Positions 415-5,993 of a DNA stretch of 7,652 nt are shown one piece after another; position 1 is the stretch's first letter, and each line of letters opens with the position of its first letter. This DNA is from an uncultured Spirochaetales bacterium (GTDB lineage Bacteria > Spirochaetota > Spirochaetia > Sphaerochaetales > Sphaerochaetaceae): NCBI GenBank assembly GCA_937902565.1, contig CALFMX010000038.1:1-7652 (forward strand), written 5' to 3'. The position numbers and the translations under genes were made by a program. The notes below the pieces were generated by a model. It worked only from the letters and a program-made list of their open reading frames with translations. It ran no database searches and was not told where the DNA came from.

Positions 415-1789
415 GGGCGAGGGCATGCCTGAAATCGGTGAAGCTCAAGAATGCGAAGAAGAGCGCGATCATCACAAACCCGACAATCTGCAACACAAGA
501 TAGACGCGCGGCTTGATCTCTTTGCCGCTGACCCACTCGAAGAGCGCCATCACCAACTGACCGCCATCGAAGGCCGGTAGGGGGAAGAGATTGATGATGG
601 CAAGCGAGATCGAGACAACCCCCATCAGGTAGAGCAGGGCGTGGATCCCGCTGACCGGGTTCTGTTCAAAGCCCAAGGAAGCGATGTCACCGATCAGGAG
701 GGCCGAGCGGTTCATGCCGGTGACCGAGGTGTGCAAGTCACCGCCGCCAGGTTGTGAGAGACCGAAGAGCGAGTCGACCGTCTGCTCGGCTACGGCCAGG
801 CTCTGTACCACACCGCGGACCACGCTGAAACGTTCAGGGGTGCCGCTGCGGCGTGCAGAGGCGAGGCTGAAGCGATAGGCACTCCTGCCCCCGTCATCCC
901 GCTCCGGGGTGAAGGTGATGGAGAGGGGGGGGCCGTCACGCTCGATGCCCAGGGTGACCTGACGTCCATCGACCGGCAGGAGGGAGAGCAGGTCAAGGTG
1001 GTTCTCCACCGTCTGGTCGTCCACTGAGATGATCCGGTCACCGGCAAGGAGGCCTGCGCGCTCCTCACGGCTTGAGGGGCGTACGCTGCCGACAACCGCC
1101 TCCTGCATCACAGCAAGCCCCCAACGATAGGTGTCGTCTCCCCGGACCTCACCCTCGACGAGGAAGGTCAGCTCCCGATCACCCCTCAGGACCGTGAAGC
1201 GTTCGATACCCGATGAGCGGGCAAGCAGCGTCTCCAACTCCTCCCAGTCCCGCACCTCGGCGCCGCTGAGCGCCGTGATCACATCCCCGGTGCGGATACC
1301 CGCCTTCCAGGCGGGGCTGGTGTTGGTTCCAAAGAGGGACTCATAGGTATTGGTCGTGGCAACGCGTGCTTCGGTGGAGATGAGGGTGAAGGGGAGGACC
1401 GCCAAAAGTGCGTAGAGGAGGATGGCGAAGATGACGTTGAAGAGGACACCGCCGAGGTAGGTGGCGATCCGTTTTGCCGGGTGTGCCCCGTAGTAGGAGC
1501 CCTCTTCGGTGTGGCGGAAGGTGTTGCCCTTGTAGCGCAGGGCGCGCTCCAGATCCTCGGAGCCCTTGAGGCGGCAGTAGCCTCCCACCGGCACCATGCT
1601 GAGGCGCAGTTCGGTCCCTCTAATTTGGGTGGAGATGAGTTTCGGCCCGAAGCCGAATGAGAAGACCTCGACGCCGATGCCCATGAGCGATGCCATGACC
1701 AGATGGCCCGTCTCATGGATGAGGACCACCACGCTGATGCCCGCCAAGCCGATGAGATACTTCAGCAGCAGGGGCCAGAGCGCACTCAT
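404..1789 (-). CDS. rseP: RseP-family site-2 intramembrane zinc metalloprotease
   Basis: This 461-residue membrane protein belongs to the S2P family. In better-studied bacteria its relatives cleave anti-sigma factors and leftover signal peptides inside the inner membrane. The zinc motif HETGH lies at residues 25-29 within the first membrane helix, followed by the conserved MVPVGGY hairpin (65-71). A second helix is near 110-135. There are two periplasmic PDZ-like domains, about 150-215 (GIRTGDVITAL) and 230-310 (GLLAGDRIISV). The second active-site motif, NLFPLPAFDGGQ, is near 400-411, with the zinc-binding Asp at about 408, followed by a last helix. The ATG at 1789 overlaps the dxr stop as ATGA. 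No Shine-Dalgarno sequence is visible, so translation is probably coupled to dxr. The frame stays open for 26 more codons upstream inside dxr, but that stretch looks like shadow sequence. The TAG stop overlaps convergent dnaB. The natural substrate cannot be told from the sequence. Confidence 0.93.
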   Translation of the reverse strand: MSALWPLLLKYLIGLAGISVVVLIHETGHLVMASLMGIGVEVFSFGFGPKLISTQIRGTELRLSMVPVGGYCRLKGSEDLERALRYKGNTFRHTEEGSYYGAHPAKRIATYLGGVLFNVIFAILLYALLAVLPFTLISTEARVATTNTYESLFGTNTSPAWKAGIRTGDVITALSGAEVRDWEELETLLARSSGIERFTVLRGDRELTFLVEGEVRGDDTYRWGLAVMQEAVVGSVRPSSREERAGLLAGDRIISVDDQTVENHLDLLSLLPVDGRQVTLGIERDGPPLSITFTPERDDGGRSAYRFSLASARRSGTPERFSVVRGVVQSLAVAEQTVDSLFGLSQPGGGDLHTSVTGMNRSALLIGDIASLGFEQNPVSGIHALLYLMGVVSISLAIINLFPLPAFDGGQLVMALFEWVSGKEIKPRVYLVLQIVGFVMIALFFAFLSFTDFRHALALRR

Positions 1790-2979
1790 AGCAGGCTCTG
1801 GGCGAGGTGGCGAGCCCTGGTGTCGACCTCGACGATCTGCTGATAGGAGGTGATGGTGCCCTCCCATTCATGGTCGACGGTACGCCGTACCACATCGATC
1901 ATCACAGGGTAGGGGATGGTGCCTTCGAGGAAGGCGGCGACGGCCACCTCGTCGGCAGCGTTGAAGGCGATGGTGCTGAGGTCCCCCCGCCTGAGGATCT
2001 CGAAGGCGAGGCCCAAGAGGGGGAAGCGATCCAGGTCAGGCCGCTCGAAGCTCAACGAGAGGGCGTCGAAGTCGAGACGGTCGACGATATCCTCAGGCCC
2101 GTCGAGCAGCGCGCCGATGATGGCGAGACTCATGTCGGGCTTGCTCAGCTGGGCGTAGACGGCACCATCGGTGGTACGGATCATCGAGTGGACGATCGAT
2201 TGCGGGTGGACGACCACCTCGATCTCATCACCGGAGAAGCCGAAGAGGTAGGATGCCTCGATGACCTCGAGGGCCTTGTTGGCCAGGGTTGCGCTGTCAA
2301 TGGTGATCTTCTTCCCCATCTGCCAGGTAGGGTGGGCAAGGGCATCCGCTGCCTTCAGGTGGGCAAAGCGGGCACTCTCGAGGGTGCGGAACGGTCCCCC
2401 GCTGGCGGTGAGGATCAAGGATCGCACGTGCTCTTTCTTATGCCCCTTGAGCAGGGAGGCGAGGGCGGAGTGCTCACTATCGACGGGGATTATGCGGCAG
2501 TTATGCCTACAGGCAGTCTCGAAGAGCAGCGCCCCTCCACAGATGACGGACTCCTTGTTGGCCAGGGCGAGGTCGATGCCCCGCTCAAGGACTGCAAGCG
2601 AGGCCCTGAGGCCGGCAAAGCCACTGATGGCATTGAGTACGATATCGACCGGATGCTCATCGAGCATGGCCACAAGACCTTCAAAGCCGTGGTAGAGTCC
2701 CTCGTATGGAGTCCCCGTCGAGCAGAGCGCCTCAGCAGAGAATTCACGCCCATCGGCGATGAGGCGATCGACACTGGTATGGGAGGTGAGTGAGACGACA
2801 GAGAGGGGGAGGGCGTGTGTTCTTATGGCGGTGAGGGTCGTCTGTCCTATCGAGCCGCTGGAGCCCAGGATGGCCACGCGGTCGCCGGGCTGCACGTCGA
2901 AATCGATGCCCTGCAGCACATGGTGATCGCCGAAGCGCTTGTGGAGGCCGCTGGAGCCCAGGATAGCGATGCGTTTCAT
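1786..2979 (-). CDS. dxr: 1-deoxy-D-xylulose 5-phosphate reductoisomerase with a 31-residue ABC-ATPase-like insertion
   Basis: Dxr converts DXP to 2-C-methyl-D-erythritol 4-phosphate with NADPH and a divalent metal, the committed step of the MEP isoprenoid pathway. Family motifs present in order are: the NADPH loop GSSGSIG (39-45), ANKESVICGG, the metal/substrate motif VDSEHSAL, LTASGGPFR, HPTWQMGKKITIDSATLANK, VVHPQSIVHSMI and AQLSKPDMS. The frame gives 397 residues, which looks normal, but only 366 belong to Dxr. Residues 12-42 are an insertion that begins LHKRFGDHHVLQGID and ends GDRVAILGSSG, so MKRIAILGSSG is followed by a second near-copy of the same loop. The second copy still supplies a complete strand and GSSGSIG loop, so the enzyme could be active, but this is not known. 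The ATG at 2979 overlaps the cdsA stop as ATGA and has no visible ribosome-binding site, which suggests coupled translation. The TGA overlaps the rseP start. Confidence 0.93.
   Translation of the reverse strand: MKRIAILGSSGLHKRFGDHHVLQGIDFDVQPGDRVAILGSSGSIGQTTLTAIRTHALPLSVVSLTSHTSVDRLIADGREFSAEALCSTGTPYEGLYHGFEGLVAMLDEHPVDIVLNAISGFAGLRASLAVLERGIDLALANKESVICGGALLFETACRHNCRIIPVDSEHSALASLLKGHKKEHVRSLILTASGGPFRTLESARFAHLKAADALAHPTWQMGKKITIDSATLANKALEVIEASYLFGFSGDEIEVVVHPQSIVHSMIRTTDGAVYAQLSKPDMSLAIIGALLDGPEDIVDRLDFDALSLSFERPDLDRFPLLGLAFEILRRGDLSTIAFNAADEVAVAAFLEGTIPYPVMIDVVRRTVDHEWEGTITSYQQIVEVDTRARHLAQSLL
2854..2871. repeat. 18-bp direct repeat, copy 1 (inner edge of dxr insertion)
   Basis: GCCGCTGGAGCCCAGGAT on the + strand is identical to 2947-2964, 93 nt away. 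On the coding strand it encodes ILGSSG. Similarity continues over 27 nt (2854-2880 against 2947-2973) with three mismatches, encoding RVAILGSSG here and RIAILGSSG in the other copy. Confidence 0.95.
2854..2946 (-). other. 93-nt in-frame insertion in dxr resembling an ABC-transporter ATPase N-terminus
   Basis: The 31 inserted codons read LHKRFGDHHVLQGID, then FDVQPGDRVAILGSSG. In amino-acid-importer ATPases (HisP/GlnQ type) the same layout occurs: LHKxFGxxxVLxGIxxxVxxGDxVxIIGSSGSGKST, running from the first strand to the Walker A loop. The following residues here are SIGQTTL, which are Dxr and not the GKST of Walker A, so no ATP site is formed. Because both ends carry the same 18 bp, the insertion can equally be placed up to 18 nt to the right. 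What is seen is the repeat and the duplicated loop. The ABC origin is inferred from motif pattern. Confidence 0.75.
2947..2964. repeat. 18-bp direct repeat, copy 2 (near the dxr start)
   Basis: This is the second identical copy of GCCGCTGGAGCCCAGGAT. It lies in codons 6-11 of dxr and probably represents the native start of the gene, since MKRIAILGSSGSIGQTTL would be the normal uninterrupted Dxr N-terminus. Confidence 0.95.
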
Positions 2980-4511: not shown

Positions 4512-5066
4512 TCAGATCTCCATGATTTCCTTCTCCTTTTCATCGGAGATGGAGTTGATCTTCTCAATGAAGGAGTCGGTCAGTTTCTGGACCCTGTTCT
4601 CTCCATCCTTCAGCTCATCCTCGCTGATCTCGCTTGCCTTCTCCAGGCGCTTGAGTTCGTCGATTGCCTCACGGCGGATGTTGCGCATGGCGACCCGGCT
4701 CTGCTCTGCCGTTGCCTTGGCACCCTTTACCAGCTGCTTGCGCCGATCCTCGTTGAGGGGAGGGAAGTTGAGGCGGATGAGCTTGCCGTCGTTGTTCGGC
4801 GGCAGTCCGAGGTCACTCTTGAGGATTGCACGCTCGATGGCACTGAGTACGCTCTTGTCCCACGGTTGGATGACGATGGTCCTCGCCTCGGGGACACTGA
4901 TCGTGGCGACCTGGTTGATCGGGGTTTCGGCGCCATAGTAGTCCACCCGAATCTTGTCGAGGAGGGTGGTGGAGGCCCGTCCGGTCCTGAGGCCATCAAA
5001 CTCCCTGGAAAGACTCTCCAGGCTCTTCTGCATCTTGCTTTCGCACGTCTCCAATACTTGTTGCAT
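4512..5066 (-). CDS. frr: Ribosome recycling factor
   Basis: RRF splits the post-termination ribosome together with EF-G so that its subunits can be reused. The 184-residue length matches the family (about 185). The sequence contains the three-helix-bundle motifs LRTGRAST (26-33), KSDLGLPPNNDGKLIRLNFP, LNEDRRKQLVK and NIRREA. It ends in a charged helix rich in Glu and Lys. The ATG at 5066 is chosen because GGAG (5073-5076) lies 6 nt upstream. A TTG four codons earlier would itself be part of that ribosome-binding site. The stop is separated from the uppS ATG by a single nucleotide. A 66-nt spacer with a strong hairpin separates it from tsf, which may allow expression to differ from the ribosomal genes. 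Confidence 0.97.
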   Translation of the reverse strand: MQQVLETCESKMQKSLESLSREFDGLRTGRASTTLLDKIRVDYYGAETPINQVATISVPEARTIVIQPWDKSVLSAIERAILKSDLGLPPNNDGKLIRLNFPPLNEDRRKQLVKGAKATAEQSRVAMRNIRREAIDELKRLEKASEISEDELKDGENRVQKLTDSFIEKINSISDEKEKEIMEI

Positions 5067-5072
5067 ATAGTT

Positions 5073-5076
5073 CTCC
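5073..5076 (-). promoter_or_regulatory. Ribosome-binding site deciding the frr start
   Basis: GGAG on the minus strand lies 6 nt before the ATG at 5066. It overlaps the alternative in-frame TTG at 5078, which rules against that longer start. Confidence 0.75.
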
Positions 5077-5090
5077 AATACAAAGACGAG

Positions 5091-5114
5091 TGCCGCTCAC
5101 AGGTGTGAGCGGCA
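5091..5114 (-). terminator. Intergenic hairpin between tsf and frr (attenuator or processing site)
   Basis: TGCCGCTCAC and GTGAGCGGCA form a perfect 10-bp stem around a 4-nt loop, beginning 18 nt after the tsf stop. On the transcribed strand it is followed by CTCGTCTTTGTATT, which has T residues but no clean T-run, so it is a weak terminator at best. Its place after the ribosomal genes suggests partial termination or RNA end protection that lowers expression of frr and the lipid genes. The hairpin is seen directly; the role is inferred. Confidence 0.6.
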
Positions 5115-5132
5115 TCCGTATCATTCAATCTC

Positions 5133-5984
5133 TCAAACGGGGCAGGAGGCTACACCTGCACGCAGGAATGCATACTCCTTGATTGCAAGCGTGCCACCGG
5201 CGGCCTTCTCCACTTCGGCCAACTTCTTTGCAACGGTCAACGAGTCATCCTTGACGAACTCCTGCTGCATGAAGCAGATCTCGGCAAGGTGCTTGGCGAG
5301 CTTGCCTTTGACGATGCCGGCCTGGACCTTCGCGGGTTTGTCGAGCTTTGCAACCTGGGCGGCAAAGATCCCCTCCTGCTCCTTCACGTATGCCGGGTCG
5401 ACGCTGGAGACGTCGAGGAAGGCGGGGGTGTTGGCAGCGACGTGGAGGGCACAGTCGTTGGTGAACTCCTTGACCAGGTCATTGGCAAAGAGCTCCTTGC
5501 GGTCGGCCTTGAAGATCACGAGGACGGCAAGGCTGCCGTTGCCATGGACGTAGGAGGAGGCGTACTCGTTCTCACCGATTTCGTAGAGGCAGACACTCTT
5601 GAGTGACATGTTCTCCTTGATGGTGGTGATCAGGTCGTTAACCATTCCATTGAGCTCGTCATTGACCTCGTTGTACCCCTTCTCAAGGGCTACGGTGCAA
5701 ATATTCTCACCCAGCTCGGCGAATTGGGCGTTGCCGGCGACGAAGTCGGTCTCACAGGTGAGTTCGACCAAGACGGCCCTGGTGTCTGCAACCTTCACGA
5801 AGACACGGCCGTTGTCAGTGGCGCGATCCTGGCGGTTCGCGATGGCGGCGAGCCCCATCTCCTTGAGCAGGCGCTCGGCTGCGTCAAAATCCCCGTCTGC
5901 CTTCACCAGCGCCTTCTTGCAATCCATCATGCCCGCCCCAGTGAGGTCGCGCAGTTTCTTTACTACATCAGCGGTAATAGCCAT
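5133..5984 (-). CDS. tsf: Translation elongation factor Ts
   Basis: EF-Ts is the nucleotide-exchange factor that removes GDP from EF-Tu. The 283-residue protein begins with the UBA-like domain (VVKKLRDLTGAGMMDCKKAL, about 8-26). It carries the EF-Tu-contacting TDFVAGN at 79-85, where many relatives have TDFVARN, so the loop's Arg is Gly. The two core subdomains follow, with HVAANTPAFLDVSSVD and CFMQQEFVKDDSLTV marking the second. The ATG at 5984 has AAGGAG (5990-5995) 5 nt upstream; the GTG two codons earlier overlaps that site and is rejected. It follows rpsB after 9 nt, the usual pairing. The ribosome-binding site overlaps the rpsB stop codon, so the two genes are probably translated in step. 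Confidence 0.97.
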   Translation of the reverse strand: MAITADVVKKLRDLTGAGMMDCKKALVKADGDFDAAERLLKEMGLAAIANRQDRATDNGRVFVKVADTRAVLVELTCETDFVAGNAQFAELGENICTVALEKGYNEVNDELNGMVNDLITTIKENMSLKSVCLYEIGENEYASSYVHGNGSLAVLVIFKADRKELFANDLVKEFTNDCALHVAANTPAFLDVSSVDPAYVKEQEGIFAAQVAKLDKPAKVQAGIVKGKLAKHLAEICFMQQEFVKDDSLTVAKKLAEVEKAAGGTLAIKEYAFLRAGVASCPV

Positions 5985-5993
5985 GTTCACTCC

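Follow-up and report, generated by a model that had tools for sequence, protein, structure and literature searches.

The dxr gene (1-deoxy-D-xylulose-5-phosphate reductoisomerase, which acts in isoprenoid synthesis) of this contig is interrupted, within the codons of its NADPH-binding loop, by 93 bp that equal, base for base, part of an amino-acid ABC-ATPase gene from another phylum. We consider it probable that this insert is a sequencing or assembly chimera, i.e., a mis-join of DNA or reads from two organisms, a weighting that is our judgement after setting out the evidence both ways. The earlier note on this DNA had offered such a join as the alternative to recombination; it is now the reading rated most likely, and a genuine insertion takes second place, possible but doubtful.

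A dxr frame carrying 31 additional codons

The window (the whole of contig C38, 7,652 bp, from an 86% complete draft assembly of 332 contigs and 2.33 Mb) carries on its minus strand a run of genes that we take to be maf, rpsB, tsf, frr, uppS, cdsA, dxr, and rseP, with names that follow the Pfam families. Here tsf is followed directly by frr (4512–5990, minus strand); pyrH, which often sits between these two, is not in this cluster.

The product of the interrupted frame is recognizably Dxr. Three Pfam domains score above curated cut-offs (PF02670 at 83.0 bits, residues 35–149; PF08436 at 124 bits; PF13288 at 98.9 bits), as does the Dxr equivalog model TIGR00243 of NCBIfam (328.7 bits versus a cut-off of 315.7), whose match begins at residue 34; an insert-free homolog (P0047) scores 337.8 on this model, and two other Dxr equivalog models place both the chimera and P0047 below cut-off. 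The GxxGSIG loop that follows the first strand is present (Gly39, Ser40, Ser41, Gly42, Ser43, Ile44, Gly45), with Gly39, Gly42, Ser43, Ile44, and Gly45 invariant across 54 aligned Dxr sequences.

The frame reads MKRIAILGSSG, then LHKRFGDHHVLQGIDFDVQPGDRVAILGSSG, then SIGQTTL, and contains two exact copies of the 18-bp word GCCGCTGGAGCCCAGGAT spaced 93 bp start to start (Table 1). The identical repeats, the open in-frame reading, and the retention of both frame and strand across the insert, all described in the earlier note, are confirmed. Over a longer span of 27 bp the two copies agree at 89%. This is the single pair of exact repeats of at least 18 bp at a spacing of 30–400 bp in the window, and no such pair was found in 280,383 bp taken from 20 other contigs of the 332 (~12% of the assembly) or in 13 stretches, 248,975 bp in all, that belong to five relatives; the pair stands above chance background.

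Table 1. Positions of the dxr frame, the repeat copies, and the donor-derived tract in the window
Feature	Position	Strand	Remarks
dxr frame, insert included	1786..2979	-	397 aa, no internal stop
Opening five dxr codons, MKRIA	2965..2979	-	Residues the same in P0047 and P0048
5′ copy of the 18-bp repeat, dxr ILGSSG, left joint	2947..2964	-	Donor counterpart ATCCTGCGCATCAGCGGC, 15/18, final 7 bp exact
75 bp attributable to the donor ABC-ATPase gene alone, LHKRFGDHHVLQGIDFDVQPGDRVA	2872..2946	-	Identical to G237 C5
3′ copy of the 18-bp repeat, ILGSSG, right joint	2854..2871	-	Exact repeat copy
21 bp common to the empty dxr site and the donor gene, right joint	2851..2871	-	Flanks joined in silico
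93-bp insert, 31 codons, one of several equivalent placements	2854..2946	-	Donor comparison
Exact donor tract, 103 bp	2851..2953	-	Alignment to donor gene

Comparison with other Dxr sequences (the best 120 of 7,941 protein matches to query residues 44–397) identifies the 31 residues as foreign to Dxr and not ancestral. The two closest proteins, P0047 (98% identical) and P0048 (96% identical, from Sphaerochaeta sp. and the closest named Dxr among these 120), share the start MKRIAILGSSG (beginning MKRIAILGSSGSIGQTTL) and lack the 31 residues, their length of 366 aa being exactly 397 minus 31. The claim that Dxr is interrupted in its NADPH-loop codons is upheld. Given the Sphaerochaeta source of P0048, we take the host to be a spirochaete of the Sphaerochaeta type. 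P0047 departs from the window protein, insert aside, at eight residues (residue 35 falls in the donor tract), and because just these eight differ we regard P0047 as the representative of a protein cluster and as coming from a near strain. Of the 120 listed Dxr, 115 have a loop that begins no later than residue 13, and the other five are N-terminally truncated and devoid of the loop. None of the 120 (those five included) carries the segment, and none of the listed Dxr shares more than three consecutive residues with the 24 inserted residues upstream of the repeat. At the genome level, a match came from 56 of 60 relatives, in some cases no more than a weak ABC-ATPase match, and the segment is absent from all 25 Dxr loci read (24 of them congeneric, one from the same family). 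An insertion shared by close relatives, which the earlier note regarded as evidence against a recent event, was looked for, and none of those examined has it.

These comparisons bear directly on the idea that the segment is an old N-terminal extension inherited within this Dxr lineage. Short N-terminal extensions do occur in other Dxr (a loop offset of 9–12 residues in 9 of the 120 listed), but the segment is in none of the listed proteins or loci read and all of its 93 bases are those of a gene from a betaproteobacterium; P0047 and P0048, which lack the segment, refute the idea, and it is the least probable of the explanations weighed.

Two further observations were made in the course of these searches. 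One Dxr relative (P0114, on a contig of 3,010 bp) is 552 aa long, ~180 aa above the usual length. Separately, seven relatives at the class level (G039, G052, G053, G055, G045, G046, and G048; 89–99% complete) returned for the Dxr query either nothing or only brief matches resembling an ABC ATPase, and some further genomes in the relative search show the same pattern, so that several lineages of this class may be without Dxr.

Source of the segment and placement of the joints

Residues 1–50 as query returned 45 protein matches at E ≤ 10, all with an ABC-transporter domain and none of them a Dxr; the best is a protein of Pseudacidovorax sp. 1753. Over the inserted residues this protein, an ABC-transporter ATPase for polar amino acids (P0002), is identical (31/31). 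At the DNA level, 71 of 399 donor-family genomes gave a match at E ≤ 1e-8 (the 399 being a draw from a larger family group with two candidates scored per genome; others may equal the best). A Pseudacidovorax MAG (G060) shares 89 of the 93 insert bases, and genome G237 shares all 93, within a gene at L139:954–1733 whose protein is 97% identical to P0002 and likewise agrees at 31/31 inserted residues; with flank included, the exact tract reaches 103 bp. This identifies a Pseudacidovorax-type betaproteobacterium as the donor, and one of its amino-acid ABC-ATPase genes as the source of the insert. The assignment to an amino-acid ABC ATPase, made in the earlier note from the letters of the window, holds, and the searches have supplied the donor gene itself. 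Zero differences in 93 bases place donor divergence below ~3% (rule of three), and therefore the event is either young or never took place in a cell. Next after the ATPase gene of G237, on the same strand, lies a 310-aa frame (L139:1767–2699) that by eye resembles an aminotransferase of class IV.

Candidate sources nearer to hand were rejected. A DNA search of the assembly itself yielded nothing close to the donor gene (the longest strong match elsewhere being 75% over 277 bp). A 49-residue junction peptide gave 32 matches, one of which is the window and the other 31 of which lie at E 8.2e-6 or weaker, and a donor-type protein gave 66, the best at 52% identity besides the short tract of the window; an own-genome donor is rejected with some caution, given an assembly completeness of 86%. 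As to carriers, the tract is matched by 19 of 72,556 plasmid records, all at or below the 80–90% identity band, and by no phage record, and the exact left-joint pattern (the sole query used there) is in no viral contig.

The position of the joints can be read from the donor. When the dxr 18-mer is compared with every position of the 3-kb donor locus (5,968 positions, 2,984 per strand), the two best matches (18/18 and 15/18) coincide exactly with the joints and lie 93 bp from each other, ahead of a third-ranked position at 13/18. On the right, dxr without the insert and the donor have 21 bp in common with no mismatch, covering the codons of ILGSSG(S). At the left joint, the donor counterpart encodes the ATPase N-terminal residues ILRISG, and its 15/18 match includes just 7 exact bases at its end. 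The earlier proposal that two ILGSSG loops served as joints therefore stands for the right side, where Walker A meets the Dxr loop, and fails for the left. We infer that sequence similarity placed both joins; it follows that the kept frame needs no extra coincidence.

The part of the ATPase that is present is not in itself a nucleotide-binding fold. The Pseudacidovorax ATPase is a whole protein of ~259 aa, whereas the Dxr insert holds the pre-Walker A stretch and the start of the loop only. The chimera (P0001) has no GK[ST] of Walker A, reading GSSGSIGQTT where the donor reads GSSGSGKST, and it is missing the LSGGQ signature and Walker B of ATPases of the HisP/TcyN type, both of which are present in the donor family. 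The suggestion of an exchange between two different nucleotide-binding folds was accordingly overstated. A stronger form of it, in which the exchange is adaptive and the ATPase segment gives Dxr a new property, could appeal to the right joint, placed in a loop that contacts nucleotide in both families (the Walker A loop and the Dxr loop both touch nucleotide). Against this are the missing GK[ST], signature motif, and Walker B, a left joint outside any nucleotide-binding loop, and a segment predicted to be disordered in the Dxr context, in a model whose alignment held no relatives for that part; we regard an adaptive exchange as very improbable.

Mis-joined DNA or an event in a living cell

Under the preferred reading, a mis-join would have arisen outside any living cell, during library making or assembly. 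Two places in the donor gene, separated by 93 bp, match the dxr site ATCCTGGGCTCCAGCGGC(TCG), and these two matches would account for both joins. The 21 identical bp on the right could have led reads of both organisms to be mistaken for one path, and the 18 bp on the left (three mismatches, the last 7 bp exact) could have allowed the end of one piece to be laid on the other; as both matches lie in the same codon phase, the product would remain open and be hidden as a full-length Dxr.

Several observations favor such a chimera. The foreign sequence is identical to that of another organism and missing from the 98% and 96% identical Dxr, and among the assemblies examined the insert is seen in this one only. 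The donor belongs to another phylum, with no near copy of its gene elsewhere in the assembly. When the rest of the window was compared with G237 and G060, with 40 candidates scored for each genome, no listed stretch of at least 50 bp rose above 77% identity, and the next-best match was rpsB at 65%. The contig is short, and the assembly to which it belongs is fragmented and incomplete. A published evaluation describes chimeric contigs in metagenomes as commoner for species of low to intermediate coverage (PMC7881036). The present case resembles such contigs in that a fragmented draft genome has DNA of two organisms on a single contig, and differs in that a 93-bp insert has both flanks in place where a chimeric contig has a single breakpoint.

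Three points weigh against a chimera. The seven contiguous bases of the left joint are too few for an ordinary k-mer collision, and therefore an artefact would also require chimeric molecules or mismatch-tolerant joining. The lack of a second repeat pair in the 280,383 bp of other contigs gives no sign of systematic mis-joining; that broader process is unsupported by the stretches sampled, though a single accident may have occurred. Finally, the insert preserves the frame, and no decay is seen in the remainder of dxr: in an alignment of 36 rows (one short row left out), columns that are free of gaps and invariant in the 34 other Dxr hold no change private to this protein, and residues 157 and 203, which differ from both near strains, fall at variable columns. 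Taken by itself, this absence of decay is uninformative as to artefact or real event.

The same facts can be read as traces of an event in a cell. A single strand of Pseudacidovorax-type DNA, nascent or incoming, would have annealed at the ILGSSG codons of dxr through its 15/18 match on the left and its 21/21 match on the right, after which a pair of template switches or of illegitimate crossovers would have produced the 93-bp insertion; we hold this to be possible but tentative. In its favor, both joints lie at sequence matches, as expected from annealing, the frame is kept in an undecayed gene, and an AlphaFold2 model retains the Dxr fold. The genome encodes the ComEC-type channel family, which is found also in 10 of 14 control genomes and so is not diagnostic of competence. 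Short matches at both joints are likewise a feature of illegitimate recombination during transformation, and double illegitimate recombination in natural transformation was reportedly described by Hulter and Wackernagel in 2008. A published account describes cells integrating foreign DNA in natural transformation by a short homologous anchor plus microhomology, or without homology (PMC4437187); homology-facilitated and double illegitimate recombination as treated there resemble the present case in joining foreign DNA at short or no matches and differ from it in that here we see pure insertion into one site, known from sequence alone. A literature search under the phrase short-patch double illegitimate recombination found nothing, which we do not equate with absence from print. 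Speaking against an event in the cell, the insert is in no close strain examined, plasmid matches reach at most 80–90% identity with no phage record and no viral left-joint pattern, and the altered form would need to have become the one sampled and assembled with no visible benefit.

Implications for the enzyme and for annotation

Should the insertion be real, the encoded protein can be described in some detail. The dxr start and the cdsA stop overlap as ATGA (2976–2979, minus strand); with dxr starting in this overlap, translation would proceed from the usual ATG to give 397 aa, and it is probably coupled to that of cdsA. AlphaFold2 models have a mean pLDDT of 90.3 for the chimera and 94.5 for P0047, with strand 33–38 and helix 43–54 of the former corresponding to 2–7 and 12–23 of the latter, a shift of exactly 31; residues 1–20 and 22–25 of the chimera fall below pLDDT 50. 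The first strand now reads DRVAILG instead of KRIAILG. On these models the chimeric Dxr would likely keep its fold, with a loose tail ahead of the first strand. With an N-terminus longer by 31 residues it would probably still work. That a living Sphaerochaeta took a 93-bp betaproteobacterial transporter patch into the cofactor-loop codons of Dxr, in frame and with a probably working enzyme as the outcome, is a picture we view with doubt.

As an artefact, which is the reading we prefer, the insert is no biological feature; it serves as a warning that a chimera can stay in frame, keep gene order, and pass family cut-offs at an unremarkable length, escaping annotation because ILGSSG is encoded by similar codons in two gene families. 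If it took place in a cell, it would be a fresh instance of short-patch illegitimate transfer, a kind already known: a snapshot of such transfer between phyla in which donor, recipient, and both joints are known to the base, and in which Dxr, an enzyme generally held essential, would have been patched at its cofactor loop with the frame intact.
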